Below are positions 26,467 to 44,500 of a DNA stretch of 64,000 bases, one piece after another. The first letter of the stretch is position 1; the number at the start of each line of letters is the position of its first letter. The notes under the pieces were generated by a model, which was given only the letters and a program-made list of their open reading frames with translations, did not search any database and had not been told where the DNA came from. The position numbers and the translations under genes were made by a program. This DNA is from Dissulfurimicrobium hydrothermale (GTDB taxonomy: Bacteria > Desulfobacterota > Dissulfuribacteria > Dissulfuribacterales > Sh68): NCBI RefSeq assembly GCF_022026155.1, contig NZ_CP085041.1:1830306-1894305 (forward strand), given 5' to 3'.

Positions 26467-27306
26467 CTAAAACTCGGCGGGGAGCCCCTTTACCCTGGCC
26501 CGGGTGAAGACGGGCCCGTCCTTACAGACATAAACAGGGCCTATATTGCAGTGACCACATACGCCAAGGCCGCACTTCATGCGGTTTTCAAGCGATAGAT
26601 AGACCTGTTCGTCTTGCCAGCCGATCTTTTCAAGGGGCGGCATAGTAAACTTGATCATTATAGGCGGGCCGCAGATGAGCGCCGCGGCGTTTTGAGGCGA
26701 AGGCGCCACCTTCTCCGTTATGGTCGGAACAAAACCTACAAGCCCTGTCCACCCTGGGGCCTCCCGATCGATCGTCACATATAGATCCAGATCATCCCGA
26801 TCGGCCCAGAGAGCGAGTTCGTCACGGTACAGGAGCATCCCAGGGGTCCGCGCCCCATAGATGACCGTGATCTTACCATAGTCATCTCTGTGCTCAAGCA
26901 GGTAAACAAGTGTGGCCCGAAGGGTCGTAAATGCAAAACCGCCCGCTATAATGAGTATATTCCTGCCCTTTAGCAAGCTATCCACCGGAAACCCGTTCCC
27001 AAGCGGACCGCGGATGCCTATCCTTGCCCCCTTGTCAAGCTGGTGAAGGACGGTGGTGACCACACCAGCCCTGTTCACTGTAAAAAGAAGCGCATCTTTC
27101 TCGGTGGGCGATGAGGCGATACCGATAGGTATCTCGCCCTTCCCGGCGATGGAGAGCATTGCGAATTGACCCGGGATATGGTGCCAAACGGCCCTTGCCA
27201 GCTCGTCTTCAAGCACGAGCCTGAATGTCTTCAGGTTTCCATCCTCGGTCTCGATCTTTATATCGTCTATGCGCGCAGCATATGGAATATACGGATTTTT
27301 TGTCAT
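26467..27306 (-). CDS. FAD/NAD(P)-binding subunit of the Flox-Hdr complex (FlxA/HydG-like)
   Basis: 279 residues of the ferredoxin-reductase fold. The FAD-binding barrel is at about 8-105 (IPGQFAMLSI, GPLGNGFP), the NAD(P)-binding domain at about 110-235 (ILIIAGGFAFTTLRA, CGPPIMIKF), and a C-terminal [2Fe-2S] site is formed by Cys245, Cys250, Cys253 and Cys261 (KCGLGVCGHCNIG, YVC). This is the PyrK / sulfhydrogenase-gamma type. In Flox complexes this subunit oxidises NADH and passes electrons for flavin-based bifurcation at HdrA. It is the last gene of the seven-component operon, 3 bases after the ferredoxin-type subunit gene. Confidence 0.85.
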   Translation of the reverse strand: MTKNPYIPYAARIDDIKIETEDGNLKTFRLVLEDELARAVWHHIPGQFAMLSIAGKGEIPIGIASSPTEKDALLFTVNRAGVVTTVLHQLDKGARIGIRGPLGNGFPVDSLLKGRNILIIAGGFAFTTLRATLVYLLEHRDDYGKITVIYGARTPGMLLYRDELALWADRDDLDLYVTIDREAPGWTGLVGFVPTITEKVAPSPQNAAALICGPPIMIKFTMPPLEKIGWQDEQVYLSLENRMKCGLGVCGHCNIGPVYVCKDGPVFTRARVKGLPAEF

Positions 27307-27309
27307 CTC

Positions 27310-28359
27310 TTACTCCATACCCACAAGGTCATGGATGACCTCGCGGATATCGATATTAACCGGACACTCGCGAATGCAGCGCCCACATCCCACGCAAGAG
27401 ACAAAACCAAAGCGGTCAGGGAAGTATTTGAGCTTGTGCATGAAGCGGTTTCTCACCCTCTTTAGCGCCTCACCCCTTGGGTTGTGACCAGAGGCATGGA
27501 GGGTAAAAAGCGGAAACATACATGAATCCCAACAACGAATACGGCGTCCCTGCCCGCAGATTATCTCATCCTGGATATCAAAGCAATAACAGGTGGGACA
27601 GAGGAAGGTACAGGCCCCGCAGTTTATACAGGATTCGGAGAGAGGCTGCCATATATCTCTATTATATAGGGACGTCATGTCTTTGGACCTCAGGACCTCA
27701 TCCAGCCTTGAGATCTGCCCTTCGGCCGTATCGACAGCAGATCTTAACGCCCTTAAGCAGGCAATGTCTTCATTGGTTGCATCCCCTTTCCCATCAGCCG
27801 CCTTTAATAAAAGGTCTTCCCCCTTGTGTGTTAGCACCTCGGCGACAAGGCCGTCATCCATCTCTGTGATAAGTATATCCAGGCCATCGGTCCCATATGG
27901 TGAACCACCTACCAATCTGCAAAAACAGGTGCTACACTGAGTCCCGCAAGAAAACCCGACTATCACGGTCCGTTCAAGAAGCGCCCTGAAATATGGATCC
28001 CCCTCAAACGGCATGGCATTCAACATAATACTTCTGGCATCGCACGGCCTCACCCCGAAAAGCACCCGCCGCCCGTCGACATCGATCGTTTCAGCCCTCG
28101 GCAACCACGCATCCTGGTCCGTATGTCTGGCAGAAAAGGTGAGGATAATCTCGGGCTGGGGAAAGAAAAAGGTCTTTATCGGGGTCTTCGGCGCGCCGGC
28201 AGGTATCTCAAGCGCATCGGAAATATTTGCTTTATTGATACGCAACCATGTCTTTTGCCCTTTTGCTTCATCTTTAATCAGGCCATAGGACTCAAATTCA
28301 CTCGCCCAGGCCAAAAGCCAGCCAGAAAGCCCGTCTCTATCAATCTTAACAGCCCTCAT
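27310..28359 (-). CDS. 4Fe-4S dicluster subunit of Flox-Hdr (sulfhydrogenase-beta-like)
   Basis: 349 residues, related to the HydB/AsrA-type iron-sulfur subunits that pair with PyrK-like FAD subunits. The N-terminal two thirds hold VRPCDARSI and a cysteine set (FSCGTQCSTCFCRLVGG). Two C-terminal ferredoxin motifs follow: CINCGACTFLCPTCYC and CVGCGRCIRECP. It should wire electrons between the NAD-linked flavoprotein and the HdrA/MvhD side. The gene overlaps its upstream neighbour by ATGA and precedes the FAD subunit by 3 bases, the usual order in flx clusters. Confidence 0.82.
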   Translation of the reverse strand: MRAVKIDRDGLSGWLLAWASEFESYGLIKDEAKGQKTWLRINKANISDALEIPAGAPKTPIKTFFFPQPEIILTFSARHTDQDAWLPRAETIDVDGRRVLFGVRPCDARSIMLNAMPFEGDPYFRALLERTVIVGFSCGTQCSTCFCRLVGGSPYGTDGLDILITEMDDGLVAEVLTHKGEDLLLKAADGKGDATNEDIACLRALRSAVDTAEGQISRLDEVLRSKDMTSLYNRDIWQPLSESCINCGACTFLCPTCYCFDIQDEIICGQGRRIRCWDSCMFPLFTLHASGHNPRGEALKRVRNRFMHKLKYFPDRFGFVSCVGCGRCIRECPVNIDIREVIHDLVGME

Positions 28360-29390
28360 GCCTTGTTCTTCTCCTTGATTATCACAAACCCCTGCGGGTC
28401 ATCAGGCCTGTAGGTGACAAGCGGGGGCTGAATCAACGGATCAAGCCCGGCCTCGACGCCAAAGAGTTCAAATACATCTTTTTCGAGCTTCTTGGTAAAG
28501 AGCCTCATTTTTATGCCCATGGGACAGGCGCTCTCACACGCCCCACAGTCGGTGCAGCGCCCTGCGCAGTGAAAGGCTCTAAGTATGTGAAAGAGCGCGG
28601 TATCCGTGGGATCTATCGACTTTCCAACCCACTGGGGCCTTGAATCGTCCACAAAGCATGTCGGGCAATAACAGAGCGGACAGGCGTTTCTGCAGGCATA
28701 GCAGCGGATACATGAGGCTATCTCGTTTTTAAACCAGGCCCAGCGCTCATCCACTGTCATGGCCTCAATCACTTCTATCTGGGCGAAGCGGTCATCGGCC
28801 TTTCTGTTTGAATCAGGCCCTATCTTATAGTCGAATATTACTGGATCGGGATGAACACAGCTCTTGCAATTGTCCCGTACCACTGACCAGCGGTCTATTT
28901 CAAGCCCATAATCGCTGCCTGAGATCTTAAGCGTATGTTCACCTTCCTCAACCTTAAAGATCTCGCGGCCACCGGTCATGGCCATGACCTTCTTTCTGTC
29001 CACCATACCGCGGCTTGAGACCCCAAGGATCACAAGCCTTTTGCGGTCCACCTGCCTTTCCTGCATCTGGACCACGATATTTCTAGACCAGCAGCCTGTA
29101 GCCACCACCCCGACCTTTGGAAGCGGGCCGGCAGGTACAGGGTCTCTGAGGCCCCTCGGCGGCTCAAGGGACTTTAAAAGGCTTGGCAGGTAGTTTGCAA
29201 GGTTCATGACACAAAAGCTGTTCCAAACGAACCTTTCTGCATCCTCAGGCCTCCTTGCAACAAAAGGCCTCAAAGTCATAGGGATGCTTCCTTCAATAAA
29301 TCCCAGGAAGACCGCTACCTCGCCGGATGAGAGGAGTTCAGCGGCCTTAGCCCTGATTCCTTCTGTAATTTCCGCGTTTGTATGAGACAT
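28356..29390 (-). CDS. 4Fe-4S ferredoxin-type subunit of Flox-Hdr
   Basis: 344 residues. The N-terminal 220 residues contain a Rossmann-like segment (VGVVATGCWSRNIVVQMQER) and a cysteine pair (DNCKSCVHPDP). Then come two ferredoxin-type sets, CIRCYACRNACPLCYCPTC and CTDCGACESACPMG. This matches the second iron-sulfur subunit of Flox clusters, which resembles F420-hydrogenase-beta/formate dehydrogenase-beta proteins. It likely contributes a cluster chain to the bifurcating complex. It lies 6 bases after the mvhD-like gene and overlaps the next gene by 4. Confidence 0.78.
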   Translation of the reverse strand: MSHTNAEITEGIRAKAAELLSSGEVAVFLGFIEGSIPMTLRPFVARRPEDAERFVWNSFCVMNLANYLPSLLKSLEPPRGLRDPVPAGPLPKVGVVATGCWSRNIVVQMQERQVDRKRLVILGVSSRGMVDRKKVMAMTGGREIFKVEEGEHTLKISGSDYGLEIDRWSVVRDNCKSCVHPDPVIFDYKIGPDSNRKADDRFAQIEVIEAMTVDERWAWFKNEIASCIRCYACRNACPLCYCPTCFVDDSRPQWVGKSIDPTDTALFHILRAFHCAGRCTDCGACESACPMGIKMRLFTKKLEKDVFELFGVEAGLDPLIQPPLVTYRPDDPQGFVIIKEKNKA

Positions 29391-29396
29391 GGCCGC

Positions 29397-29870
29397 CTAC
29401 CCACCAATTCCTTTCACTAACCTCTTTTGAGGCCCGAGGGCCTTCACGAGCCCGGTCACCTCCTTCACCACATCAGCGAACTGCCCGCCTTCAGAGGCGG
29501 AGACCCATGAGAAATTGACCCTGCCAGGCTCTATGCCGATAAATTCAAGAAAATTCTTAAACAGGGCAAAACGGCGCCTCGCATATAAGTTGCCACTTAT
29601 ATAGTGGCAGTCGCCTGGGTGACAACCGGACACCAACACCCCGTCGGCACCGGCCTTCAGGGCATCGAGGATCATATTCGGCGAGATGCACCCCGAACAT
29701 GGAACCCTAATTATCCTGATGCTAGGCGGATACTGAAACCGGCTTACCCCGGCAAGATCAGCCCCTGCATAGCTGCACCAGTTGCACAAAAAGGCGACGA
29801 TCCTTGGCTCCCAATCTACAGATGCTATCTCCCTGCAGGCCATCGTCGGCTTTAAAAGCTCATATCCCAT
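29397..29870 (-). CDS. mvhD: MvhD/FlxD-type [2Fe-2S] protein
   Basis: A 157-residue electron-transfer protein with the MvhD cysteine pattern: FLCNWCSYAGAD, VPCSGCISPN and SGCHPGDCHY. In methanogens MvhD links the hydrogenase to HdrA; in Flox clusters the equivalent protein links the FlxABC module to HdrA. All cysteines are ordinary Cys codons. It lies 39 bases below hdrA and just above the Flox iron-sulfur subunits, the junction expected for this role. Confidence 0.88.
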   Translation of the reverse strand: MGYELLKPTMACREIASVDWEPRIVAFLCNWCSYAGADLAGVSRFQYPPSIRIIRVPCSGCISPNMILDALKAGADGVLVSGCHPGDCHYISGNLYARRRFALFKNFLEFIGIEPGRVNFSWVSASEGGQFADVVKEVTGLVKALGPQKRLVKGIGG

Positions 29871-29909: not shown

Positions 29910-32900
29910 TTACCAAACATCCGCCATATCCATCGCGGATTCTATCGCGGCCATTATCTGCTCGTTGCCTAGATTTTTAACGCTTACGGCACCAGAACGG
30001 CAAGAGGCCGCACACGCCCCGCAGCCCTTGCACAATCCGATATCGACCACAGCCCTACCTGTATCTTGGTCTATATTGATAGCCGCATACGGACAGATCT
30101 GGGTACAGACCGCGCATCCAGTACACTTAGCCGTATCCACATATGCGGTCATGGACTCAACCGACACGGCGTCTCTCGAAAGTATAGTAACGGCACGGGC
30201 TGCAGCGGCCTTTGCCTGGGCGATGGATTCATCCATCGGCTTTGGATAGTGGCAAAGACCTGCAAGAAAGACCCCTTCTGTGGCAAAGTCCACGGGCCTC
30301 AGTTTCATGTGCGCCTCAAGCAAAAACCCATCCTGATCCATGGCGCATTTAAAAAACCCGGCAAGCCCGCCCGCGTCATCACGCGGGACCACGCCGGAGG
30401 CAAGCACCAGGAGATCAGGATGGAACATCACGGGCCTATCAAGGATCATGTCATGGGCCTTGACCACAAGCCTTCCGCCGTCATCACTCACCTCTGGGAG
30501 GTGATCGAGGTCGTAGCGGACAAAAATGATCCCCTTTGCCCTGGCCTCTTCATACAATCGCTCGCGCATCCCATAGGTGCGGATATCGCGATAGAGCATG
30601 AATATTGCCATCTCAGGGTTCAGCTCTTTGAGTTTCAACGCCTGATCTATGGCATGCGTGCAACAGACACGGCTGCAATAGGGACGCTCAGGCACCCTTG
30701 AACCCACACAGTGTATGAAAACGGCCTGCGAAAGCCCATTCAAGCCCTCATCAGCTGCTATAAAACGCCTGTCAAGCTCCAGGAGCGTATGCACCGCAGG
30801 ATGCCTGCCATAAAGGTAATTCCATTTGCCCTCCCTTGGCTTAAAGGACTCTCCGCCGATTGCAATTATGGCCACGCCGTGCTCAATGACGCTTCCGTCG
30901 GAAAGGCTCGTCTTGAACCTGCCCACAGAGCCGAACGCCTCTGTTACAGTAGATTTAAGATGAAGTTCTATATTGGGGTGAGAAGAGACAGTCTTTGCAA
31001 GCTCCTCAAGATAGGGCTGGACCTCAAATCCCTGCCATGTGCGATAAAACTTCCTTGCATGACCCCCAAGCCTGTCTTTACGCTCGACTATAAAGACCTT
31101 GAAACCTTGGTCCGCGATCGCAACGGCTGCAGTCATGCCCGCTACGCCTGCACCCACCACTAGCGCCGATTTTGTAACCGGAACGCTGCTATAAGGCAAG
31201 GGCCCATCCCCCCTCACCTTTGCAACCGCCATCCGGACGAGGTCCATGGCCTTTCGTGTGGCCTTTTGAGGTTCATCCCTGTGAACCCACGAATCCTGGT
31301 CACGGATGTTGGCCATCTCAAAGAGGTGCTTGTTGATCCCTGCCTCCCTCAGGGTCTCCTGAAAGAGGGGTTCATGGGTTCGAGGGCTGCACGACGCCAC
31401 CACCACGCGGTTCAGGCGCTCCCTGCGGATAGTCTCCGCCATCTGGTTTATGGTGTCCTGCGAGCAGGTAAAGAGGTTGTCCTGTGCGAATACAACGCCG
31501 GGAAGCCCGCGGGCATACTCGGTAACGGCCTTCACGTCCACGACGCTTGCTATATTAATACCACAGTGGCAGACAAAGACCCCGATCCTTGGCGGTTCAG
31601 GGCGCACATTACGCTCGGGCGGAAATTCCTTTGCCTTTGTCTCAGTCCATCTAGCGGGCGAAAGAAGCCTTCCTGCCTCAAGTGCGGCGGCGCTTGCCTC
31701 CATGACCGACTGGGGGATATCCTTTGGCTCCTGGGCGGCCCCGCACACAAAGACCCCTGGACGGCTCGTAGAGACAGGGGAGAACGGCGAAGTAAGCACA
31801 AAGCCGTCTTTATTGAACCCAACCCCGAGCCTGTCTATGAGGGCGACGGCCTCATGATTCAATTCCATCCCCACAGACAAAACCACAAGGTCAAATTCCT
31901 CCTCGCACATCCTGCCGGCCTCATCGGCATAGCGGATCAATAGAGTGCCTTCGTCTGCAGGTATAACGCTGTGCACCTTTGATCTGTGGAATCTAACCCC
32001 TTCTTGTACAGCGCGATTGTAATAGGCCTCAAAACCCTTGCCGTGGGTACGTATGTCCATGAAAAATATATGTGCATCTAGTGCACCGCCAGCATGTTCC
32101 CTTGCGATAAGCGCCTGTTTTATGGCGTACATGCAGCAGACGGACGAACAGTAGCCGCGACAGGCCCTGTTCGTATCCCTAGAACCAACACACTGAAGCC
32201 AGGCTATGCGCCTTGGTTCTTTCCCGTCAGAAGGCCGTTCCATGCGCCCCAAACATGGCCCGGAAGGACTTAGTAGTCGTTCAAACTCCATGGCCGTGAC
32301 CACGTTTGGAATACGCCTATAACCTGTAAAATCAAGTCCTGACGGATCAAACAGGGAAAACCCAAGGGCCAAGACCACAGAGCCCACTTCAAACACATGA
32401 TCTTTCGGGACGTCATCAAAATTGATCGCCCCTGCCGGACATACATTTGCACACGCCCCGCAACGGCCAGGCCTCTTGAGCCAGATGCATTCATCCGGAT
32501 CAATGGCGTATTTGAGTGGCACGGCCTGCGGATACATGAGATACACAGCCTTTCTCTCGGAAAGGCCCATATTAAACCCATTTTTTGTCTTTTTGGGGCA
32601 TTTTTCAGCACACAGCCCACATGCTATGCACTTGGTTGTATCCACATATCTTGGATGTTGCCGGACAACGGCCTTGAAATCCCCTGGCTCGCCATCTAGA
32701 CTTATAAGTTCGGAAAGCGTAAGGAGATTGATATTCAGATTGCGCCCGCACTCAACGAGCTTTGGAGATAGTATGCAGGCCGAGCAGTCGTTTGTAGGAA
32801 ATGTCTTGTCAAGCTTGGCCATAGCCCCGCCTATCGCAGGACGCCGCTCAACCAGATGCACATAATAGCCGCTCTCCGCAAGATCCAGCGCGGCCTGAAC

Positions 32901-32948
32901 CCCTGCAATCCCCCCGCCAACCACAAGCACAGATCCCCTGGGATTCAT
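29910..32948 (-). CDS. hdrA: heterodisulfide reductase subunit A, tandem-fused form
   Basis: About 1012 residues from the ATG at 32948 (AGAGG six to seven bases upstream; GTG 32957 and ATG 32954 are alternatives). Two HdrA flavin modules lie in series. The first starts VLVVGGGIAGVQAALDLAESG, with DCSACILSPKL and ferredoxin motifs CIACGLCAEKCP and CGACANVCP. The second starts ALVVGAGVAGMTAAVAIADQG. Each ends in a CVGSR...CSxVCC motif. Two C-terminal ferredoxin motifs (CTGCAVCTQICP, CKGCGACAASC) follow. HdrA carries the bifurcating FAD, coupling NADH or hydrogen oxidation to ferredoxin and disulfide reduction. It follows the UGA-containing hdrCB gene with an overlap or near overlap, depending on the start. 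Confidence 0.88.
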   Translation of the reverse strand: MNPRGSVLVVGGGIAGVQAALDLAESGYYVHLVERRPAIGGAMAKLDKTFPTNDCSACILSPKLVECGRNLNINLLTLSELISLDGEPGDFKAVVRQHPRYVDTTKCIACGLCAEKCPKKTKNGFNMGLSERKAVYLMYPQAVPLKYAIDPDECIWLKRPGRCGACANVCPAGAINFDDVPKDHVFEVGSVVLALGFSLFDPSGLDFTGYRRIPNVVTAMEFERLLSPSGPCLGRMERPSDGKEPRRIAWLQCVGSRDTNRACRGYCSSVCCMYAIKQALIAREHAGGALDAHIFFMDIRTHGKGFEAYYNRAVQEGVRFHRSKVHSVIPADEGTLLIRYADEAGRMCEEEFDLVVLSVGMELNHEAVALIDRLGVGFNKDGFVLTSPFSPVSTSRPGVFVCGAAQEPKDIPQSVMEASAAALEAGRLLSPARWTETKAKEFPPERNVRPEPPRIGVFVCHCGINIASVVDVKAVTEYARGLPGVVFAQDNLFTCSQDTINQMAETIRRERLNRVVVASCSPRTHEPLFQETLREAGINKHLFEMANIRDQDSWVHRDEPQKATRKAMDLVRMAVAKVRGDGPLPYSSVPVTKSALVVGAGVAGMTAAVAIADQGFKVFIVERKDRLGGHARKFYRTWQGFEVQPYLEELAKTVSSHPNIELHLKSTVTEAFGSVGRFKTSLSDGSVIEHGVAIIAIGGESFKPREGKWNYLYGRHPAVHTLLELDRRFIAADEGLNGLSQAVFIHCVGSRVPERPYCSRVCCTHAIDQALKLKELNPEMAIFMLYRDIRTYGMRERLYEEARAKGIIFVRYDLDHLPEVSDDGGRLVVKAHDMILDRPVMFHPDLLVLASGVVPRDDAGGLAGFFKCAMDQDGFLLEAHMKLRPVDFATEGVFLAGLCHYPKPMDESIAQAKAAAARAVTILSRDAVSVESMTAYVDTAKCTGCAVCTQICPYAAINIDQDTGRAVVDIGLCKGCGACAASCRSGAVSVKNLGNEQIMAAIESAMDMADVW

Positions 32949-32953
32949 CAGCA

Positions 32954-34183
32954 TCACCTCTTAAGCGCCCTTACTATCCAGTTCCAAAGATGGGTAGTTT
33001 GCCAGCCGCCGCCATAAAAATCGCAGATATCTTTTATTTGGGTGTGACAGTTATGGCACGGCGTTATTACCACATCAGCCCCAGTCTTTTTCAGCTGCTC
33101 GAACTTGACCTTGCCGTACTCCCTACGGTTCTTTGCAAACCCGGACTGAAGCGCCCCGCCTCCCCCGCCGCAGCAGTAGTTGTTGGATCTGTTGGGCCAT
33201 ACCTCTATGAAATTTGCCTCGCCTGCAACCTGCTTCACGACAAATCTAAGGTCATCGGCCACTGCATCTCCAAGGCCCTGCCTGACGAGCTTACATGGGT
33301 CTTGCACTGTAAACTTAAGACCATCTTTGTTCCATGACGAATCTACTTTGAGCCTCCCCTCCCTTATCCATTTGGCGTAAAGGCTTATAATGCTCAAAAA
33401 TTCAAACCTGTGCGAGATGTTGAACCTGCGCAACCCCTCCAGGGTCGCATAAAACATATGGCCTCACTCGGTGTTTATGTAATATCGGCACCCGAGGGCG
33501 TCGACCACCTCGGCCTGCTTGCGTACCGTCATCTCCCAGTCCTTGGCGTCACCAGTAAAAAGGCAGTAGTTTGCCCCATCCCACCACTTTGAGGAATAGG
33601 TCCAATCGATCCCTGCGGCATGCAATATCTTCCAGAGAGGGACCATCTCTTCTGGCTCGACCGTCGGCTCCTTTGCGTTCTGATTGAGGTAATATTCAGC
33701 GCCCGCCTTGTCTATCGGCGCATTGATATCCGCCCATTCAGGCTCATTCTGGCGCACCTCTTCAAGCACATCCCTCACCACCCAGACAAAATCTTCATTG
33801 GGGATACCCGTGCTATTGGTTTCCTTTTGAAGATCGCATGAACGCTGTAGGTTTCTGGGCCGCTCATCCCTCGGCCTCATGCCGCGGATCTCATAGACTA
33901 TGCGTCCAACATCTATGCCCATCGGACACACATACCTGCACCTCTGACACATGGTGCAGGTATATATCCAATTGGTCTTTAAAATTTCATCATCCTGGCC
34001 TAGGACCAGAAGCCGCAGGAATTTCCGTGGGTCAAGACCATCGATGCCGGTTGCAGGACAACCGCTCGCACAAAGACCGCACGTCAAGCAGTAATCGATC
34101 CTGGCGTCCGGAACTGAGCGCTCTATCCGCCCCTTGACCCAGGCCCTGAGCCTAACAATATCCAACGGTTTCTCGTCCGGCAT
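32954..34183 (-). CDS. hdrB: HdrC-HdrB fusion (HdrD/DsrK-like), probable selenoprotein with in-frame UGA
   Basis: A single frame of 409 residues runs from the ATG at 34183 (AGAGGA upstream) to the TGA at 32954-32956, interrupted by one TGA at 33464-33466 (residue 240). The N-terminal half has two ferredoxin motifs, CLTCGLCASGCP and CTMCQRCRYVCPMG. The C-terminal half has a CCG domain (DPCKLVRQG, NNYCCGGGGGALQ, PCHNCHTQ). The interrupting codon falls in INTE-U-GHMFYATLEG, where relatives have ECGH. Cys-to-Sec replacement with a downstream hairpin is the simplest reading. A nonsense mutation, or two separate subunits with restart at ATG 33457, are alternatives. The protein should hold the active-site clusters that reduce a disulfide or similar acceptor in the Flox-Hdr complex. 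Confidence 0.82.
33430..33448 (-). promoter_or_regulatory. candidate bacterial SECIS hairpin
   Basis: On the minus strand, 15 bases after the in-frame UGA, a seven-pair stem GCGACCC / GGGUUGC (one G-U pair) encloses the loop UGGAG. The loop begins 22 bases after the UGA and has G as its second base. Both fit known bacterial SECIS rules (loop 16-37 bases from the UGA, a G among the first two loop bases) for SelB-directed selenocysteine insertion. Confidence 0.65.
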
Positions 34184-34349: not shown

Positions 34350-34510
34350 ACAAGACCAAACACCACTTGACACAAAACCTCAAGACCAGTAAGAATAAAC
34401 CACTTTTAAAGACCTCTGTGGTGGGCGTAGTTCAACGGTTAGAGCGTCGGGTTGTGGCCCCGAAGGCTATGGGTTCGAATCCCATCGCTCACCCCAAACA
34501 AGACCAAACA
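34350..34510. repeat. 13-bp direct repeats flanking tRNA-His
   Basis: ACAAGACCAAACA occurs perfectly at 34350-34362 and again at 34498-34510, enclosing the tRNA-His gene. The right copy begins two bases after the encoded CCA. It could be a footprint of recombination or duplication at the tRNA end that borders the GC-rich restriction island; chance identity over 13 bases within 150 is unlikely. Confidence 0.6.
34420..34496 (+). tRNA. tRNA-His (anticodon GTG)
   Basis: A complete cloverleaf can be drawn. The acceptor arm GTGGGCG pairs with CGCTCAC (one G-U), preceded by the extra G at -1 (34420) that pairs with discriminator C, the hallmark of histidine tRNA. D arm with TAGTTCAACGGTTAGA, anticodon loop around TTGTGGC with anticodon GTG, T arm ATGGG-TTCGAAT-CCCAT, and an encoded CCA (34494-34496). 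It stands alone between the Flox-Hdr promoter region and the restriction island, the kind of site where islands insert. Confidence 0.95.
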
Positions 34511-34763: not shown

Positions 34764-36899
34764 ATGGAAAACGGCCAATTGACTTGGATCACCAATTTCA
34801 TCTGGGGCATCGCCAACGATGTGCTGCGCGACCTCTACGTGCGCGGCAAGTACCGTGACGTCATTCTCCCGATGACGGTGCTGCGGCGTCTCGATGCGGT
34901 GCTGGAGCCCACCAAGCAGGCGGTGCTCGACATGAAGGCATCGCTCGACAAGTCAGGGATCGTGCACCAGGAAGCTGCCCTGCGACAGGCCGCCGGTCAA
35001 GCCTTCTATAACACCTCCCCCTTCACGCTACGCGACCTCAAGGCGCGTGCCAGCCGCCAGCAACTGGAGGCGGATTTTCGCGCCTACCTGGATGGCTTCT
35101 CGCCCAACGTGCAGGAGATCATCGACAACTTCGAGTTCCGCAACCAAATCCCCCGCCTGGCCAAAGCCGACGCCCTGGGCACGCTCATCGAGAAGTTCCT
35201 CGACCCGTCCATCAACCTAAGTCCCTACCCTGTGCGGGGCAGCGACGGCACCGTCCGGCTACCCGGCCTCGACAATCATGCCATGGGCACCATCTTCGAG
35301 GAGCTGGTGCGCCGCTTCAACGAAGAGAACAACGAGGAGGCCGGCGAACACTGGACCCCACGGGACGCCGTGAGGCTGATGGCCCGCCTGATCTTTGAGC
35401 CAATCGCCAACCAGATCGAATCCGGCACCTACCTGCTCTACGACGGCGCCTGCGGCACCGGCGGGATGCTCACGGTGGCCGAGGAAACCCTGTTGCAACT
35501 GGCGAAAGAGCGTGGCAAACAGGTCTCGGTGCATCTTTTCGGCCAGGAGATCAACGCCGAGACCTACGCCATCTGCAAAGCCGACCTTTTGCTCAAGGGC
35601 GAGGGCGATGCTGCTGACAACATCGTCGGCGGACCGGAGCATTCGACCCTCTCCAACGACGCCTTCCCCGGCCGCACCTTCGACTTCATGCTCTCCAATC
35701 CGCCCTACGGGAAGAGTTGGAAGAGCGACCTGGAACGCATGGGCGGCAAGGCTGGCATCAGGGACCCGCGCTTTGTCGTGCAGCACCGGCCTGCCTGCCG
35801 CGCAGAGCACGGCGCAGGCAGGGGCGAGGAGCTCTCGCTCGTCACCCGCGTGAGCGACGGCCAGATGCTGTTCCTGGTGAACATGCTCTCCAAGATGAAG
35901 CACGACACCCCGCTCGGCAGTCGCATCGCCGAGGTGCACAACGGCTCGTCGCTGTTTACGGGGGACGCCGGCCAGGGCGAGAGCAACATCCGCCGCTGGA
36001 TCATCGAGAACGACTGGCTCGAGGCGATCGTCGCCCTGCCGCTCAACATGTTCTACAACACCGGTATCGCCACCTACGTCTGGGTGCTCACGAACCGCAA
36101 GCCCGAGCACCGCAAAGGCCGCGTGCAGCTCATCGACGCCACGCAGTGGTACAAGCCCCTGCGCAAAAACCTGGGCAAGAAGAACTGCGAGCTGTCCGAA
36201 GAGGACATCCGCCGCATTGTTGATACCTTCCTCAAATTCGAGGAGACCGACCTGCCTGCCGCGCAAGCCGATAGCGCAGCGCAGGCAGGGCAGTCCAAGA
36301 TCTTTCCCAACGCGGCCTTTGGTTACTGGAAGGTGACGGTGGAGCGCCCCCTGCGCCTGAAAGGCATCGCCCCCGAGCGCGCCTACACCCCCAAGGAGAT
36401 CAAGGCGCTTCGGGAAACGGCCGAGCGCGCCGAAGATGCGCCGCCGGTGATCAAGAAAATCCACAAACCTGGCACCGCGCCCGATCCGCTGCGCGGCCTG
36501 TTCGAGGTTACCATTCACGGCAAGCCGCGCGTGGTGGAGTACGAGCCGGACACCGAACTGCGCGATACCGAGCAGATCCCCTTCCTCGAATGCCCGGCCT
36601 GCCATCAACCGGGCTACTTGCCGAGCCTGGAAGACCAGCGCACGGCCATCGAGACCTTCCTGCGCCGCAAGGTCCTGCCCTATGCGGCGGACCTGCCTGC
36701 GCCGTGCTCGCCGCGGCAGGCAGGTGCCTGGTACGACCCAGCGAGCGTCAGGATCGGCTACGAGATCAGCTTCAACCGCTACTTTTACAAGCCAAAGGCC
36801 CTGCGGTCTCTGAAAGAAATCCGCGCGGATCTTCTGGCGGTGGAGCAGGAGGCGGAAGGGTTGTTGGTGGAGATTTTGGGGGGAACGAAACATGAATAA
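34764..36899 (+). CDS. hsdM: type I restriction-modification DNA methyltransferase subunit M
   Basis: A 711-residue N6-adenine methyltransferase. The N-terminal helical domain (WGIANDVLRDLYVRGKYRDV) is followed by the SAM-binding fold with EHWTPRDAVRLM, motif I-like GACGTGGMLTVAEE and the catalytic NPPY (LSNPPYGKSWK). With HsdS it methylates the recognition site; with HsdR it forms the restriction complex. A good AGGAGGAAGG site precedes the ATG. Three 33-39-base palindromic sequences lie inside it, each adding about 10-14 residues in frame relative to the pattern I remember for relatives. Base composition is clearly GC-richer than outside the island. Its stop lies inside the start of the next gene (8-base overlap). 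Confidence 0.95.
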   Translation: MENGQLTWITNFIWGIANDVLRDLYVRGKYRDVILPMTVLRRLDAVLEPTKQAVLDMKASLDKSGIVHQEAALRQAAGQAFYNTSPFTLRDLKARASRQQLEADFRAYLDGFSPNVQEIIDNFEFRNQIPRLAKADALGTLIEKFLDPSINLSPYPVRGSDGTVRLPGLDNHAMGTIFEELVRRFNEENNEEAGEHWTPRDAVRLMARLIFEPIANQIESGTYLLYDGACGTGGMLTVAEETLLQLAKERGKQVSVHLFGQEINAETYAICKADLLLKGEGDAADNIVGGPEHSTLSNDAFPGRTFDFMLSNPPYGKSWKSDLERMGGKAGIRDPRFVVQHRPACRAEHGAGRGEELSLVTRVSDGQMLFLVNMLSKMKHDTPLGSRIAEVHNGSSLFTGDAGQGESNIRRWIIENDWLEAIVALPLNMFYNTGIATYVWVLTNRKPEHRKGRVQLIDATQWYKPLRKNLGKKNCELSEEDIRRIVDTFLKFEETDLPAAQADSAAQAGQSKIFPNAAFGYWKVTVERPLRLKGIAPERAYTPKEIKALRETAERAEDAPPVIKKIHKPGTAPDPLRGLFEVTIHGKPRVVEYEPDTELRDTEQIPFLECPACHQPGYLPSLEDQRTAIETFLRRKVLPYAADLPAPCSPRQAGAWYDPASVRIGYEISFNRYFYKPKALRSLKEIRADLLAVEQEAEGLLVEILGGTKHE
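35790..35822 (+). repeat. palindromic mini-element copy 1 inside hsdM
   Basis: 33 bases bounded by CCTGCCTGC and GCAGGCAGG, perfect nine-base inverted arms. It encodes the extra residues PACRAEHGAGR between two conserved methyltransferase blocks (RFVVQH and LSLVTRVSDGQM). It reads nearly as the reverse complement of copy 3. Confidence 0.75.
36251..36289 (+). repeat. palindromic mini-element copy 2 inside hsdM
   Basis: 39 bases with the same nine-base arms CCTGCCTGC / GCAGGCAGG and a centre six bases longer than in copies 1 and 3. It encodes about LPAAQADSAAQAG between FEETD and QSKIFPNAAFGYW. The six-base difference keeps the frame. Confidence 0.75.
36692..36724 (+). repeat. palindromic mini-element copy 3 inside hsdM
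   Basis: 33 bases with arms CCTGCCTGC / GCAGGCAGG. Its centre GCCGTGCTC matches the reverse complement of copy 1, so the two are the same element in opposite orientation. It encodes LPAPCSPRQAG just before the conserved WYDPASVRIGYEISF. Confidence 0.75.
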
Positions 36900-39693
36900 G
36901 CCGATCTGGCCCTATCCCGGCTCGCGCTGGTGGAAGTTCGACTTCCACACCCATACGCCGGCATCAAGAGATACGTACTGGGCGAGAAACAACATTAATC
37001 TGTCGCCAGAAGAGTGGTTACTCGAGTACATGCGCGCCGAGATCGATTGCGTGGCCGTTACGGATCATAATAGCGGGGCGTGGATCGACGATCTCAAAAA
37101 GGCCTATGCGAATATGAAGGCGCAAGCCGAAGCCGGCAACCCGCCCGAAGGCTTCCGCAAGTTGACAATCTTCCCAGGAGTGGAAATCTCAGTACAGGGC
37201 GGCATTCATCTATTGGCGATTTTCGAACCTGACGCCAAGACCGGCGACATCGATACATTGCTTGGCAAAGTGGACTACAATGGTTCCAAAGGCGACAGCG
37301 ACGGCGTTACCAGGAAAGGTATCGCAGCGGTTTTAGAAGCCATTTTAGAAAGTGGAGCTATTCCCATCCCTGCACATGCAGATGCAGACAAGGGTTTGCT
37401 GGCTGTTAGACCTGGCACCCAGAAAAGTCGCATTGATGCAAACACCGTTCGCCAAGCGCTGGATGTAGAGGGCGTTCTCGCTGTGGAATGGGTCGATTCG
37501 AATAAGAAGGACTATCTCACTTGCGTAAAAAAACAAGCCAAGAAACTCACGAGAATACTCGGTAGCGACTGCCACACCTTTCATGGCAACGCAGTCCCCG
37601 GCAGCCGCTACACCTGGGTCAAGATGGCCAAGCCCACGCTGGATGGCCTAAGGCTTGCGCTGCTGGATGGGAACGGCGTTTCGATCCGCCGCAGTGACGA
37701 GGGCACGTTCGACCCCTTCAAGACACCCGCTCATTTCATCACTGCTATTGAGATTGGCAGTGCCCGCTATATGGGAAACGGTCAGGCCGAGCGGATCGAG
37801 CTTACACCTTTCTACAACGCCCTGATCGGTGGGCGTGGAACCGGAAAATCCAGCTTCGTTCACGCCTTGCGCCTGGCCTATGGACGCAACGACGAGCTGA
37901 ACAGCCTAAGCGGCAATGCAGAGCCTTTGCGTCAATTCGAATCCTTCCGCAAGGTGCCTAAAGCGCGCGATGACGAAGGTGCGCTACGTGTGGAGACCGA
38001 GATTTGTGCGGAGCTAATGCGCGAAGGGCAACTGTCCAGGCTACGCTGGCAGAACCCCGGATCACCACAAATCATAGTCGAAGAGAAGGACGCGAACGGG
38101 ACTTGGTGCGAGTCAGGAAGCCAGGCTGTTAATCCCGAGCGCTTCCCAATCCGCCTTTTCTCCCAGGGCCAGATTGCGGCCATGGCGGGTGAAAGCCGTC
38201 AAGCGCTCCTGTCCGTGATCGACGAGGCAGCCCAGGTCGGAAAACTCAAACGAGAATTTGAAGAGGAAAAACGCAGCTTTCTCACCCAGCGGGCGCGCCT
38301 TCGCGAGCTGGAAGGAAAGCTTGCCGACCGTCACGAGGTAGAACGAAGGTTACATGAGGTGGTTAGGAAACTCGACGCTTTTGCCCAGGCACATCATGCC
38401 GAGGTCCTGAAGGCCCATGCGCATGCCCAGAATCAGCGAAGAGAGGTCGAGCAACTCCTTAAACAAATGCACGCGCTGCCTGAGCGGATTGAAGATGTCG
38501 CGCGAGACCTCATCCTTGACGACTGGTCTTCTGGCGTTTTTGATGACGCGAGTGATGCGGACGTACTTGAGTGGCGCAAGAAGGCAGATGACGCCGTGCA
38601 GCAAGTGCGGCAAGCCCTTGAGCAAGCAAGCAGTGCCTTGGCCGAAAATGCGCGACTGCTCGAACAAGACCCACTGCTCGCCGTCTGGCGTAAGCGCACC
38701 GACAAGGCTCAGGCAGATTTCGAAGACTTGCAGAAATCCTTGGCCGCGCAAGGCGTGAACGACCCACAAGCCTTCGGACAGCTGGTGCAGGAGCGTCAGT
38801 ACCTCGAGGCACAGCTCAAGCGCCTCGATCAGATCAAGGCAGAGCGGGACACGCTCGAAGAGGCGATCGCCGCGCAATGGCAAAAAGTCGTGGAAGCGCG
38901 CGAGGCCATCACGTCAACGCGAGCAGAATTCGTCAAGAAAACGCTGGACGGCAATCCCTACGTGCGCATCGAAGTCGTGCCTTTCGGCTTCGACGCGCGT
39001 GTAATCGAGCGCAGCCTGCGCGAGCTTCTCGAGGCCACGGATGATCGGTTCGAAAACGACATCTTGGCGATGGCCGCGGCGGGCAATCCCACGGGTGGCC
39101 TGGCCTTCAAGATCGCCCAAGCAGATGACCGCAAGGCAGCTCTGGATAGTTCAAAGAAACAACTGCAGACAATCGCAGATGCATTTGGCGGCCACTTCAA
39201 GAACTACCTCAAAAAGAAACTGGAGAGGCCTGAGTTTGCCGACCACATCCAATGCTGGTTCCCCGAAGACGATCTGCGCATCCAGTACAGTCGCAGGGCC
39301 GACGGCACCGACTGGGCGGCCCTCACCCAGGGATCGCAGGGCCAGCGCTCGGCGGCACTGCTTGCTTTCTTGCTCGCGTTCGGCGAGGAACCTTTGGTTC
39401 TTGACCAGCCCGAGGACGATCTGGACAATCATTTGATTTACGACCTCATCGTCCGCCAAATCCGCGAAAGCAAGCTGCGCCGGCAACTCGTCATCGTAAC
39501 TCACAATCCCAATATCGTTGTCAACGGCGACGCTGAGCTGGTGCACGTGCTCGACTTTCGAGGCGGGCAATGCCGTGTGGTCGAGCGCGGTGCACTTCAG
39601 GAGAACTCGGTACGCGAAGAGGTCTGCCGCGTGATGGAAGGCGGGCGCGACGCCTTCGAGCGGCGCTGGAAGCGCCTGGGAAGGAGGGTGTGA
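36892..39693 (+). CDS. TrlF-like PHP-domain AAA/SMC-type ATPase
   Basis: A 933-residue protein placed between hsdM and hsdS. The N-terminal PHP phosphoesterase-like domain is at about 14-260 (DFHTHTPASRD, AVTDHNSGAW, GVEISVQGGIHLLAIF, PAHAD, GSDCH). Then an ABC/SMC-like ATPase head with Walker A GGRGTGKSSF (about 313-322), a long coiled coil (about 440-700), and the second half of the head with the signature-like QGSQGQRSA and Walker B PLVLDQPEDDLDN. This is the layout of TrlF-family ATPases seen inside type I restriction operons. A nuclease-linked anti-phage role is inferred. It starts inside hsdM and ends 1 base before hsdS. Confidence 0.85.
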   Translation: MNKPIWPYPGSRWWKFDFHTHTPASRDTYWARNNINLSPEEWLLEYMRAEIDCVAVTDHNSGAWIDDLKKAYANMKAQAEAGNPPEGFRKLTIFPGVEISVQGGIHLLAIFEPDAKTGDIDTLLGKVDYNGSKGDSDGVTRKGIAAVLEAILESGAIPIPAHADADKGLLAVRPGTQKSRIDANTVRQALDVEGVLAVEWVDSNKKDYLTCVKKQAKKLTRILGSDCHTFHGNAVPGSRYTWVKMAKPTLDGLRLALLDGNGVSIRRSDEGTFDPFKTPAHFITAIEIGSARYMGNGQAERIELTPFYNALIGGRGTGKSSFVHALRLAYGRNDELNSLSGNAEPLRQFESFRKVPKARDDEGALRVETEICAELMREGQLSRLRWQNPGSPQIIVEEKDANGTWCESGSQAVNPERFPIRLFSQGQIAAMAGESRQALLSVIDEAAQVGKLKREFEEEKRSFLTQRARLRELEGKLADRHEVERRLHEVVRKLDAFAQAHHAEVLKAHAHAQNQRREVEQLLKQMHALPERIEDVARDLILDDWSSGVFDDASDADVLEWRKKADDAVQQVRQALEQASSALAENARLLEQDPLLAVWRKRTDKAQADFEDLQKSLAAQGVNDPQAFGQLVQERQYLEAQLKRLDQIKAERDTLEEAIAAQWQKVVEAREAITSTRAEFVKKTLDGNPYVRIEVVPFGFDARVIERSLRELLEATDDRFENDILAMAAAGNPTGGLAFKIAQADDRKAALDSSKKQLQTIADAFGGHFKNYLKKKLERPEFADHIQCWFPEDDLRIQYSRRADGTDWAALTQGSQGQRSAALLAFLLAFGEEPLVLDQPEDDLDNHLIYDLIVRQIRESKLRRQLVIVTHNPNIVVNGDAELVHVLDFRGGQCRVVERGALQENSVREEVCRVMEGGRDAFERRWKRLGRRV

Positions 39694-39769
39694 AATGTTT
39701 ACGACACCCAGAGAATTGATCGACAAAAACCCCTCTCTAGAGGGACTACCAAGAAACACTGGCCTGAAG

Positions 39770-40487
39770 CCCTACCCCGCCTACAAAGACTCCGGCGTGG
39801 AGTGGCTCGGCCAGGTGCCGGAGCATTGGGAGGTGGTGGCCGGGCGTACGGTGTTTCGTCAAATCAATGACCGTGGTCATCCTGACGAGCAGATGCTGTC
39901 GGTAACCATCACACGCGGCGTACTGCGTCAGGCAGACTTGCTCGCGGACAGTTCCAAGAAAGACTCCTCGAACGAGGACAAGTCCAACTACAAACTCGTT
40001 CAACCGGGTGACCTGGTGTACAACAAAATGCGTGCCTGGCAGGGGGCGGTGGGCGTCTCGGCTTACCGGGGGATCGTGAGCCCGGCTTACATCGTCCAGC
40101 GGCTAAGGAGCGCCGAGAACTTGCCCCGCTACATGCACTTTCTTCTTCGTACACCCCTTTTCGCTTCGGAGGCCGAGCGATGGTCGTATGGCATCACTTC
40201 GGATCAGTGGAGTCTGCGAGCAGAAGAATTCAAGTGTATCTACTTCTCACTTCCCCCCCCTCTCCGAACAAACCGCCATCGTCCGCTTCCTCGATTACAT
40301 GGACCGGCGGGTTCGGCGCTACATCCGCGCCAGGCAGAAACTGATCAAACTGCTGGAGGAGTACAAGCAGGCCCTCATCCACCGCGCCGTCACCGGGCAG
40401 ATCGATGTCCGCACCGGCAGGCCCTATCCGGCCTACAAGCCCTCCGGCGTGGAGTGGCTGGGCCAGGTGCCGGCGCATTGGGAGGTG
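39770..40487 (+). repeat. internal direct repeat of hsdS (39770-39835 and 40422-40487)
   Basis: Two 66-base segments, nearly identical, encode YPAYKxSGVEWLGQVPxHWEV at the start of each target-recognition domain, 652 bases apart. Such repeats are normal in hsdS and can serve as sites for domain-exchange recombination. Confidence 0.8.
40253..40260 (+). repeat. C8 homopolymer at the hsdS frameshift
   Basis: Eight C in a row after TT, exactly where the hsdS frame breaks. Seven C would restore a continuous protein. Confidence 0.85.
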
Positions 40488-41004
40488 CGACGGCTGAAAA
40501 CGATATGCAGAATGAAGGCTGGAGAAAACATCACTAACCAGTCAATCGAACCATCAGGCGATTTCCCAGTTTACGGCGGTAATGGAATTCGAGGTTACAC
40601 GTCTGGCTTCACTCATCAAGGTGAATTCATATTGATTGGTCGCCAGGGGGCGCTGTGTGGCAATGTCCATCTGGTCCAAGGGCGATTTTGGGCTTCTGAG
40701 CACGCTGTCGTTGTTTCACCCTATGGTGGTCACGACCTTCAGTGGTTTGCTGGATTACTCCAGGCCATGAACTTGAATCAATATTCGATGGCGGCTGCGC
40801 AACCCGGACTTTCAGTTGAGCGTGTTCTGAATCTCTGGGCACCAGTACCGCCTGCTGAAGAGCAAAGGCGCATTGCTGAATATGCCATGTTCGCCACGTC
40901 GCGGATTAGGAGCGCCATTGCCGCCGCTCGCCGCGAAATCGAACTTCTGCGCGAATACCGCGAGCGCTTGATTGCCGATGTGGTCACCGGCAAGGTGGAT
41001 GCGA

Positions 41005-41039
41005 GAAGTGTGAAGTGTGAAGGGGGAAGTGTGAATGAG
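41005..41039 (+). repeat. AAGTGTGAA repeat at the 3' end of hsdS
   Basis: GAAGTGTGAAGTGTGAAG followed by GGGGAAGTGTGAATGAG. It encodes RSVKCEGGSVNE directly after the usual HsdS terminus (VVTGKVDAR), creating the tail. The same peptide pattern recurs inside hsdR. Confidence 0.7.
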
Positions 41040-41143
41040 GAAAATGAGCAAGGAGAGATGGAGTGGGAATCGCAAAATGAGGATGACGAAGCGGAGGATG
41101 AACTCGAAGGAGAGATGCGCGAGGCTGACACGGACGAGGGGGT

Positions 41144-41512
41144 ATGATGGAAAAGCCCACGAACATTCAGGAACGAGCGTTTGATTTCGCGGTGCGTGTG
41201 GTGAAGCTGTGCATCCACTTGGACGGTCAACCCGGTGTTCCGCGAACCCTGTCAAACCAGTTGTTGCGCTCGGGAACCGCAATTGGCGCAAATCTGGAAG
41301 AAGGCATCGGCGCTCAATCCGAAGCAGACTATCTGACCAAAGTCTCCATCGCCTGCAAAGAGGCCCGCGAAACGCTCTTCTGGCTCAAGTTGCTGGCCGC
41401 AACAGAGATCGTGCCGCAGGACCGTCTGGCTGGAATCACCGATGAATGCAATCAACTCGTCGCCATTCTTACGGCGACGGCCAAACATCTAAAGGAGCGG
41501 CGCCATGGCTAA
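41144..41512 (+). CDS. four-helix-bundle protein (S23/IVP-like)
   Basis: A 122-residue all-helical protein of the TIGR02436 type, recognised by the opening ERAFDFAVRVVKLC and LLRSGTAIGANLEEGIGAQSEADYLTKVSIACKEARET. These proteins often sit inside restriction-modification or 23S-rRNA intervening contexts; their role in restriction operons is unknown. The start ATGATG overlaps the hsdS stop, and its end overlaps the hsdR start by 8 bases, so it is translated as part of the hsd operon. Confidence 0.85.
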   Translation: MMEKPTNIQERAFDFAVRVVKLCIHLDGQPGVPRTLSNQLLRSGTAIGANLEEGIGAQSEADYLTKVSIACKEARETLFWLKLLAATEIVPQDRLAGITDECNQLVAILTATAKHLKERRHG

Positions 41513-44500
41513 TCACACTTCACACTTCACACCGCACACTTCACACTTTTCGGAAACCAGCGAAGCCGGGCTTGAAACCCTGATCTGCCGGACGCTCACG
41601 GGCAGTGACTGCACGCCCCGGCCTGCCGGTTCCTCGGCGGTCCTGGCCGAGGCGACGGCGTCCTACGGGGGTGTGGGTTGGCTCCCCGGCGATCCGTCCG
41701 ATTACGACCGGGAGTACTGCGTCGATCTGGTTCAGCTTACGGCCTTTCTGCGTTCGACGCAACCGGAGGTTGCCGATGCGCTCGATCTCAACAACGACAG
41801 CCCCACGCGGCGCAAGTTTCTGGCGCGCCTCCAGGGCGAGGTGAGCAAGCGCGGGGTGGTGGACGTATTGCGCAATGGGATTCAGCACGGGCCTTACCGC
41901 ATCGAGCTCTTCTACGGCACGCCTTCCCCCGGAAACGAGCAAGCGCGGGCGCTCTATGAGCAGAACCGCTTCACCGTCACGCGCCAGCTCCGCTATAGCC
42001 GCGACGAGACGCAGCGGGCGCTGGATTTGGTGCTCTTTATCAACGGCTTACCGGTTTTCACCTTCGAGCTCAAAAACCGCCTCACCAAACAGACGGTGCA
42101 TGACGCCATCGAGCAGTACAGGCGCGACCGCAACCCGCGCGAGAAGCTATTTGAATTGGGCCGCTGCGTGGCGCACTTCGCCGTGGACGAAAACGAGGTG
42201 TGGTTCTGTACGCACCTTGCGGGCAAGGCGTCTTGGTTTCTGCCTTTTAACAAGGGATGGAACGACGGCGCGGGCAATCCTCCCAATCCGCAGGGGCTCA
42301 AGACCGATTACCTCTGGCGGGAGATACTCACCCGCGAGAGCCTGACCGACATCCTTGAAAACTACGCCCAACTCGTTGAGGAGAAAGACCTCAAGACCGG
42401 CAAGAAACGGCGACGGCAGATCTTCCCCCGCTATCACCAGCTCGACGTGGTGCGAAAACTTTTGGCGGACGCGGCGGCGCACGGCGCAGGGCGGCGGTAT
42501 CTCATCCAGCATTCCGCCGGCAGCGGCAAGTCCAACTCCATCGCCTGGCTGGCGCATCAGTTCGTAAGAAGTGTGAAGGGTGAAGTGGGAAGTGTGAAAA
42601 AAACCGAGCATTCACCCATCACCCCTCACACTTCACACTTCATTTTCGATTCCATTATCGTAGTGACCGACCGGCGCATCCTGGACCAGCAGATCCGGGA
42701 CACGGTCAAGCAGTTTGCCCAGGTGAGCGCCACGGTGGGGCACGCTGAGCATTCCGGCGACCTGCGGCGCTTCATCGAGGGCGGCAAGAAGATCATCATC
42801 ACGACGCTGCAGAAGTTCCCGTTCATCCTCGACGAAATTGGCAACGAGCACTGCGGGCGCCGTTTTGCGATCATCATTGACGAGGCGCATTCGAGCCAGG
42901 GTGGCCGCACGGCAGCGAAGATGCACCAGGCGCTGGCAGGGATGGACGACGAGGAAGACGAGACCTTCGAAGACCAGATCAACCGGCTGATGGAGGCCCG
43001 AAAGCTGCTGCCGAACGCCAGCTACTTTGCCTTCACCGCCACCCCGAAGAACAAAACGTTGGAGATGTTTGGTGAACCCGACCCGCAGCCCGACGGCACG
43101 GTGAAGCACCGGCCGTTTCATAGCTACACCATGAAACAGGCCATTCAAGAAGGGTTCATCCTGGATGTGCTGGCCCACTATACACCGGTCAAGAGCTACT
43201 ACAAGCTCATCAAGAAAATCGAGGACGATCCCGAATTCGACGTCAAAAAGGCGCAGAAGAAGCTGTGCCGCTTCGTCGAGGGGCACGAGTACGCCATCCG
43301 GCTCAAGGCTGAGATCATGGTAGACCACTTTCATGAGCAGGTGATCGCCAAAGGCAAGATCGGCGGCCAGGCGCTGGCCATGGTGGTGACCGGCGGCATC
43401 GAGCGCGCGATCCAGTACTTCGATGCGATCCAGGACTATCTCAAGGAGCGTAAAAGCCCCTACCGTGCCATCGTGGCCTTCTCGGGTGAGCACGAGTATG
43501 GCGGTCAACAGGTCACCGAGGCCAGCCTTAACGGCTTTCCATCGAACCAGATCGCCGACAAGATCCGGGAGGACCCGTACCGGTTTTTGATCTGCGCCGA
43601 CAAGTTCCAGACCGGCTATGACGAGCCGCTCCTGCACACGATGTACGTGGACAAGGTGCTCTCCGGGGTCAAGGCGGTGCAGACCCTTTCGCGCCTCAAC
43701 CGCGCCCACCCTCAGAAGCACGACACCTTCGTCCTCGATTTCGTCAACGACCCGGAGACGATCCGGAAGGACTTCGAGCCCTACTACCGGACCACCATCC
43801 TCGCCGACGAAACCGACCCCAACAAGCTACACGATCTTAAGGCCGACCTTGACGGCTATCAGGTGTACGCGCCTGAGCAAGTCGATGAACTGGTGCGGCT
43901 CTACCTGAGCGACGCCGACCGCGACCAGCTCGACCCGATCCTTGACGCCTGCGTCGCCGCCTACCTGGAGCAGCTCGACAAGGACGGTCAAATCGACTTC
44001 AAGGGCAAAGCCAAGGCGTTTCTGCGCACCTATAATTTTCTGGCTTCGATTCTCCCCTACACTAACGCCGCGTGGGAGAAGCTATCGATCTTCCTCGAGT
44101 TCCTGGTGCCCAAGCTGCCGGCACCCAAAGAGAAAGACCTCTCCAAAGGTATCCTCGAGGCGATCGACATGGACAGCTACCGGGTCGAAAAGCAGGCGAC
44201 TATAAGGATCGCGCTTCCCGATGCGAATGCCGAGATCGAACCGGTGCCCACTGTGGGTGGTGGACACAAAGCCGAGCCGGAGCTGGACCGGCTTTCGAAC
44301 ATCATCCAGACCTTTAACGACCTGTTTGGCAACATTGTCTGGACCGACGCCGACCGGGTGCGCAAACTGATCACCGAGGAGATTCCCGCACGCGTCGCAG
44401 CCGACACCGCCTACCAGAACGCATGTAAGTATTCTGACAAGCAGAATGCCCGTATCGAGCACGACAGGGCCCTTGCTCGGGTCATCACCGCCCTACTCAA

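Follow-up and report, generated by a model that had tools for sequence, protein, structure and literature searches.

The window, the whole 64,000-nucleotide stretch of Dissulfurimicrobium hydrothermale DNA analyzed here, carries an hdrCB-like (HdrD/"GlpC"-type) gene at 32954–34183 on the minus strand, delimited by translation, homolog search, and alignment. Read from 34183 to 32954 with TGA translated as U, it encodes 409 residues, has its sole internal UGA at residue 240 (33466–33464) in the motif TEUGH, and ends at a true TGA stop. Under translation table 11, the same interval yields two ORFs of 239 and 167 aa. A plus-strand reading of 32954–34183 is full of stops and was rejected. An initial annotation had described a continuous 409-residue HdrD/DsrK-like frame split by one in-frame UGA and had named no strand; the split frame was borne out, and the gene lies on the minus strand.

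Behind the gene on the same strand lies hdrA (29910–32957), encoding a 1,015-aa flavin/Fe-S bifurcating-type subunit. The 4-base overlap of the two genes proposed earlier holds for a GTG start of hdrA; an ATG farther inside the gene is just as possible as the start codon. Next come mvhD/flpD in the floxD role (29397–29870, 157 aa), a gene for an Fe-S protein in the floxC position (28356–29390, 344 aa) that is a recurrent neighbor in other loci, a floxB-like gene for a sulfhydrogenase beta/AsrA-like Fe-S protein (27310–28359, 349 aa), and a floxA-like gene for an NAD-binding, sulfhydrogenase gamma/AsrB-like flavoprotein (26467–27306, 279 aa), all on the minus strand. These genes were named from the ORF list and family matches, and the FloxA–C labels are given by similarity and position. 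Neither hdrA nor mvhD contains an internal UGA. The selA gene already reported for this window is located at 47385–48746 on the minus strand (587 bits; cut-off 267.9).

Pfam placed an HdrC-like 4Fe-4S dicluster domain at residues 29–91 (33911–34099, minus strand), with Cys32, 35, 38, 42, 76, 79, 82, and 86 invariant in 34 aligned rows. It found only one CCG domain, at residues 292–384 (33032–33310, minus strand), in which Cys297, 337, 338, 376, and 379 form a noncubane-cluster-type site by Pfam and alignment. Across the HdrB-like half of the 34 aligned proteins, the invariant positions are 240 (C or U), 297, 337, 338, 376, and 379. The C-terminal CCG site is complete with five Cys, and position 240 is the only invariant Cys/Sec of the N-terminal CCG-like half. 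Two complete CCG cysteine sets, as in HdrB of the two-noncubane-cluster type, were not found in the protein.

The predicted structure (pLDDT 90.5, pTM 0.89) matches EtfD over residues 15–409 (Z 25.5) and HdrB over residues 162–409 (Z 18.6–19.4). No solved DsrK structure was among the matches listed by the profile searches at the limits used. In the model, residue 240 sits between a strand (234–237) and a helix (241–253), in a way similar to Cys376 between strand 371–374 and helix 377–389, and a profile search aligned position 240 with the leading Cys of CPHC in EtfD. By this placement and alignment, Sec240 corresponds to the first Cys in the CxxC of the N-terminal half. The initial annotation had put the UGA in the first CCG-type site, which the predicted fold supports for the N-terminal CCG-like half; the site is degenerate, however, and goes unseen by Pfam. 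HdrB has two noncubane clusters facing each other, and the CxxC Cys equivalent to residue 240 ligates one of them. Since the N-terminal half keeps position 240 alone and the C-terminal site has its five Cys, the selenocysteine probably acts beside one noncubane cluster. We infer that the other cluster is gone and that the leftover Sec/Cys would work against the remaining one.

Homologs were defined by a profile-match threshold of E ≤ 1e-60 within the loci compared, which gave 130 distinct sequences. In 101 of these, one UGA each occurs, always in the same aligned column as the UGA of the window gene, and the other 29 carry Cys in that column; both the U and the C variants anticipated for this site thus occur in the phylum. 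The recurrence of UGA in one column is far beyond chance. All 60 genomes searched, the host genome included, had some match at E ≤ 0.001. Among the first 56 aligned rows, six of which seem to duplicate a gene already present from another source, residue 240 is UGA in 44 and Cys in 12, and the aligned part holds no other internal UGA. The same UGA is present in 27 further genomes of the order at 75–85% identity. A phylum search of 395 genomes gave 161 with a match at E ≤ 1e-40, and among the matches listed the internal stop was one TGA or none. Genomic regions (20 and then 80) were chosen from the match lists, several overlapping earlier loci, and one contig scan yielded six relatives.

Coding constraint was compared with nine relatives, giving pS of 0.48–0.94 and pN of 0.04–0.23 on the two sides of the UGA; purifying selection acts on both. 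The gene therefore has the features of a bacterial selenoprotein gene, an in-frame UGA aligned with the Cys of homologs and coding sequence on both sides. On a tree built by a quick method, with some deep joins flagged as long branches, the Sec/Cys state changes 13 times, and at least 11 changes are forced by starred branches. Two genomes of one genus (g241) differ by a recent Sec/Cys exchange: G380 (L075/L158) has UGA and G396 (L076/L159) has Cys at the same residue, and both have selA and adjoining flox-type genes. Another locus (L097, G170:C3:740409-756620) holds two different UGA-bearing paralogs on one strand; some 4 kb separates them, and hdrA and mvhD lie in the gap.

A SECIS-like hairpin lies 3′ of the UGA at 33429–33449 on the minus strand. 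It has 9 bp in the centroid fold and the apical loop GGA at 33438–33440, and the loop begins 23 nt 3′ of the UGA; in the alignment, columns 18–26 pair with 30–38 around the G-containing loop. Taken by itself, this stretch of the window folds with no unusual stability (z −0.62; 55 of 200 shuffles did equally well). Single-sequence folding was rejected as proof of a SECIS for lack of significance, and comparative tests were used for that reason. In 41 UGA sequences (40 distinct), which are related, so that their counts are not independent trials, 93.6% of 360 cells pair, a level reached in none of 500 shuffles. Control values were 34–48% for slid versions of the stem and 48.1% for nine Cys sequences. 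Cells changed on both sides numbered 30, against 8.0 in shuffles. In the covariation test, two of five measures failed to beat shuffles, namely pairs changed on both sides and further pair types (433 and 438 of 500 shuffles as high).

One fixed stem register for all sequences was rejected, and a free-register stem score was used, because 22 of the 101 UGA sequences are out of the register of the window gene. With free register, an equal stem arose in ≤0.05 of synonymous recodings for 91 of 101 UGA sequences and for 3 of 29 Cys sequences (medians 0.005 and 0.46), and in none of 200 recodings of the window gene. Stems of at least 5 pairs occur in 98 of 101 UGA forms and 13 of 29 Cys forms, and column 27 is G in all 101 UGA sequences and 16 of 29 Cys sequences; these counts, too, come from related sequences and are not independent. 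A bacterial SECIS-type hairpin lies shortly downstream and has a G in a small apical loop, and the comparative tests found a hairpin of this description. One Cys form (L147, G284:C51) also retains a strong stem (score 21) where the SECIS would lie, but has no GG at loop columns 26–28; this stem looks like a fossil SECIS that outlasted a Sec-to-Cys exchange.

The host genome encodes tRNA-Sec with anticodon UCA, selB, and selD in addition to selA, and each of the genes that the initial annotation had left to be confirmed is thus present. Hits of the tRNA-Sec model above its cut-off are not all tRNA-Sec, and ARAGORN and alignment were therefore used to separate the tRNAs. The selD gene (G000:C1:578294-579217, L016) has its own in-frame UGA in the motif ASGUASK and encodes a second selenoprotein. 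The region G000:C1:1461214-1463225 also holds a tRNA-Sec-like tRNA-Cys with a GCA anticodon (56 bits to the tRNA-Sec model; L006 1501–1589) and, immediately behind it, a second SelB-like gene (L014 ORF 1264–3471; 297 bits against a cut-off of 242). This is the selC*/selB* arrangement described for Syntrophobacterales and Desulfobacterales in the portion of the literature consulted (PMC7609411).

Lost Sec machinery was rejected as a general reason for the Cys forms. Of 28 Cys-carrying genomes, 27 were tested for selA (G080 was left out), and 24 of the 27 have it above cut-off. The gene is a fragment under the cut-off in G036, and none was found in G049 or in G050, which is a UGA carrier as well and whose genome is 79% complete.

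We read the UGA at residue 240, with a probability of about 0.95 judged from sequence data, as a selenocysteine codon in a soluble HdrC-HdrB fusion, which SelB and tRNA-Sec(UCA) would decode as directed by the downstream hairpin. The reading frame, the position of the UGA, the hairpin, the machinery genes, and the gene neighborhood are all directly observed. Conservation, hairpin, machinery, and neighborhood all lend good support to the initial proposal, which placed selenocysteine in an HdrC-HdrB-type subunit encoded next to HdrA and Flox-type genes.

It is very improbable that the UGA is a real stop, with translation re-initiating at the ATG of Met243, three codons past the UGA, to give a separate second protein. 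An ATG and a GAGG stretch do stand just after the UGA in the window, and Met is found at +3 in 32 of 101 UGA homologs, but the remaining 69 have A, V, E, I, or G at this position, and the 29 Cys forms read straight through. A cut here would also sever a strand-helix unit of the predicted CCG-like fold. Homologs ending naturally at this point, which would have spoken against selenocysteine, were not seen; two matches restricted to the front part were inspected, and each stops no more than 4 bases from the end of its contig.

Insertion of a different amino acid, either Trp or another residue by general readthrough or Cys delivered by a tRNA-Cys of the selC* type and a dedicated SelB, is similarly improbable. 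The tRNA-Sec-like tRNA-Cys and the SelB-like gene behind it speak for such decoding, as do the selC* tRNAs of Desulfobacterales, which according to the available part of a review have UCA anticodons and are charged with Cys (PMC7609411). The tRNA-Cys of this genome has the anticodon GCA, however, and therefore should read UGC/UGU and not UGA, and the tRNA detected with a UCA anticodon is tRNA-Sec. Where homologs have no UGA, they carry Cys and never Trp, and TGA also ends the same gene normally. In lineages with a UCA-bearing selC* tRNA-Cys, the same UGA might be read as Cys. An assembly error at 33464–33466 or a pseudogene, for which nothing speaks beyond the broken frame itself, is the least probable explanation: the genome is a single contig (99.95% complete), the UGA recurs in the 27 further genomes of the order and the 101 distinct sequences from many separate assemblies, and selection is purifying on both sides.

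Gene neighborhoods were compared for 78 distinct homologs flanked on each side by about 5.4 kb or more. In 23 loci (20 UGA, 3 Cys), hdrA, mvhD, and all three flox-type genes are on the same strand, with the Sec-family gene first, as in the window, in 10 and last in 13. A further 36 loci (24 UGA, 12 Cys) have hdrA and mvhD without the full flox set, and neither hdrA nor mvhD was found on the same strand in 19 (12 UGA, 7 Cys). Flox is therefore not a general partner of the family, 55 of the 78 loci being without the full set. A NiFe-hydrogenase motif scan of the neighborhoods, too crude to show absence, gave one hit (L147). No UGA was found within the MvhD motif in 67 motif hits, although Sec in other MvhD proteins may lie outside this motif.

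In domain order and fold, the protein resembles methanogen HdrB plus HdrC, by sequence match for HdrC and by structural match for HdrB. Methanogen HdrB has two noncubane clusters; the window protein is fused, keeps position 240 alone in its N-terminal half, and is not expected to use CoM/CoB. The methanogen Hdr precedent offered in the initial annotation is less apt: in the accessible portions of the literature, the methanogen Sec subunit is HdrA, a different subunit, and it was rejected as a precedent, as HdrA and MvhD of the window operon have no internal UGA. The best NCBIfam matches over most of the length are HmcF (187 bits), TmcB (177 bits), and DsrK (135 bits), far below the curated equivalog cut-offs of 750, 735, and 400, and substrate and partner therefore cannot be read from the family name. 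Unlike DsrK, HmcF, and TmcB, the window gene adjoins hdrA and flox-type genes.

Related selenoproteins have been published. The sections consulted of a 2026 review list an "Fe-S oxidoreductase-like protein, PTHR43551, motif UGH" as a high-confidence predicted selenoprotein and name a Deltaproteobacterial operon of four selenoprotein genes with frhA, frhD, and hdrA (PMC13188914). An Fe-S oxidoreductase (GlpC)-like bacterial family with the motif UGH appears in excerpts of two sources (PMC13188914; PMC1794560), and the part consulted of a 2007 study reports a two-member readthrough cluster of Fe-S oxidoreductases, exemplified by DP1009 (PMC1914089). As far as these sources go, the GlpC-like family (PTHR43551/COG0247) shares with the window protein the UGH motif, the CCG/Fe-S protein type, the bacterial group, and the linkage to hdrA and frhD/mvhD (PMC13188914, PMC9312934, PMC1794560). 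Selenocysteine in the UGH motif of an Fe-S/CCG-type protein is found in the window protein too, which was likened to published members (e.g., WP_174406253.1, DP1009) by motif and description. The operon in those passages leads to frhG-frhA hydrogenase genes, whereas the window operon leads to flox-type genes, and HdrA and MvhD of the window, unlike the published four-selenoprotein-gene operon, are encoded without internal UGA. Desulfobacterium autotrophicum HRM2 is described in the available text as having a selenocysteine HdrD4, likewise a soluble HdrC-HdrB fusion predicted to hold Sec, to which the window protein was likened by description (PMC2702500). The FlxABCD-HdrABC system, as far as covered by the portions consulted (PMC4287179, PMC6687939), shares one strand-consistent run of hdrA, an mvhD-like gene, and three flox-type genes; its separate hdrB and hdrC are replaced in the window by one Sec fusion.

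A possible electron path rests on properties described for the families involved. NAD(P)H would be oxidized by FloxA, and the FloxB/C Fe-S proteins and then MvhD would carry the electrons on to the HdrA flavin. From HdrA, some would go to ferredoxin and the others to the HdrC-like two-cluster domain of the Sec protein, and this domain would supply the noncubane cluster in the C-terminal CCG site. Sec240, in place of the first Cys of the N-terminal CxxC and opposite this cluster, could then attack a disulfide or persulfide, so that one Sec and one noncubane cluster would do the work of the two clusters of HdrB. We infer this path, NAD(P)H to Flox to MvhD to HdrA to the Sec protein to a disulfide, with its bifurcation step, at roughly even odds, and the role of Sec is likewise a proposal; the family properties behind the path are in part those given in one source (PMC6687939). 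The substrate is a more tentative matter, with the DsrC trisulfide as the leading candidate. The genome encodes one DsrC, and two other proteins with CCG matches are open frames of 424 and 540 aa. More doubtful still is a family-wide scheme, in which Sec would stand in place of a whole HdrB noncubane cluster. A selenol, as free selenolate or exchangeable ligand facing one noncubane [4Fe-4S] cluster, would reduce or make protein persulfides or trisulfides such as that of DsrC, and during sulfur disproportionation HdrA-Flox would couple this reaction to NAD(P)H and ferredoxin.

Selenoproteins of this kind have been described in related bacteria before, and with the GlpC-like UGH selenoproteins and HdrD4 published, the window gene is a well-supported addition to a known family. 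The searched portions of the literature on selenoproteins of this order hold no report of the gene, and neither the Flox setting nor the degenerate CCG site was found in the parts of the literature searched, which is no proof of absence in print. In the portion searched by word, the Dissulfurimicrobium hydrothermale genome paper has no "selenocysteine," "hdr," or "flox" and mentions one heterodisulfide reductase subunit A (PMC8780430). The additions here are the degenerate N-terminal site with a lone Cys/Sec, the flox linkage in two gene orders, and repeated exchange even though selA is mostly kept. The restored gene supplies the Flox-HdrA module of a sulfur disproportionator with a likely disulfide-reducing subunit and ties selenium supply to the energy metabolism of the organism. 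The find is correct and useful and is not surprising to a specialist, and it poses one directly testable mechanistic question. The lone Cys/Sec and at least 11 exchanges make the role of residue 240 testable, and repeated exchange at one residue with selA kept constitutes a natural mutant series.

Elsewhere in the window, positions 34764–44609 carry what we take, from ORF translations, to be a type I restriction-modification-like set (methylase-, ATPase-, specificity-, and helicase-like ORFs). It lies behind tRNA-His (34421–34496) and is perhaps an island at this tRNA.
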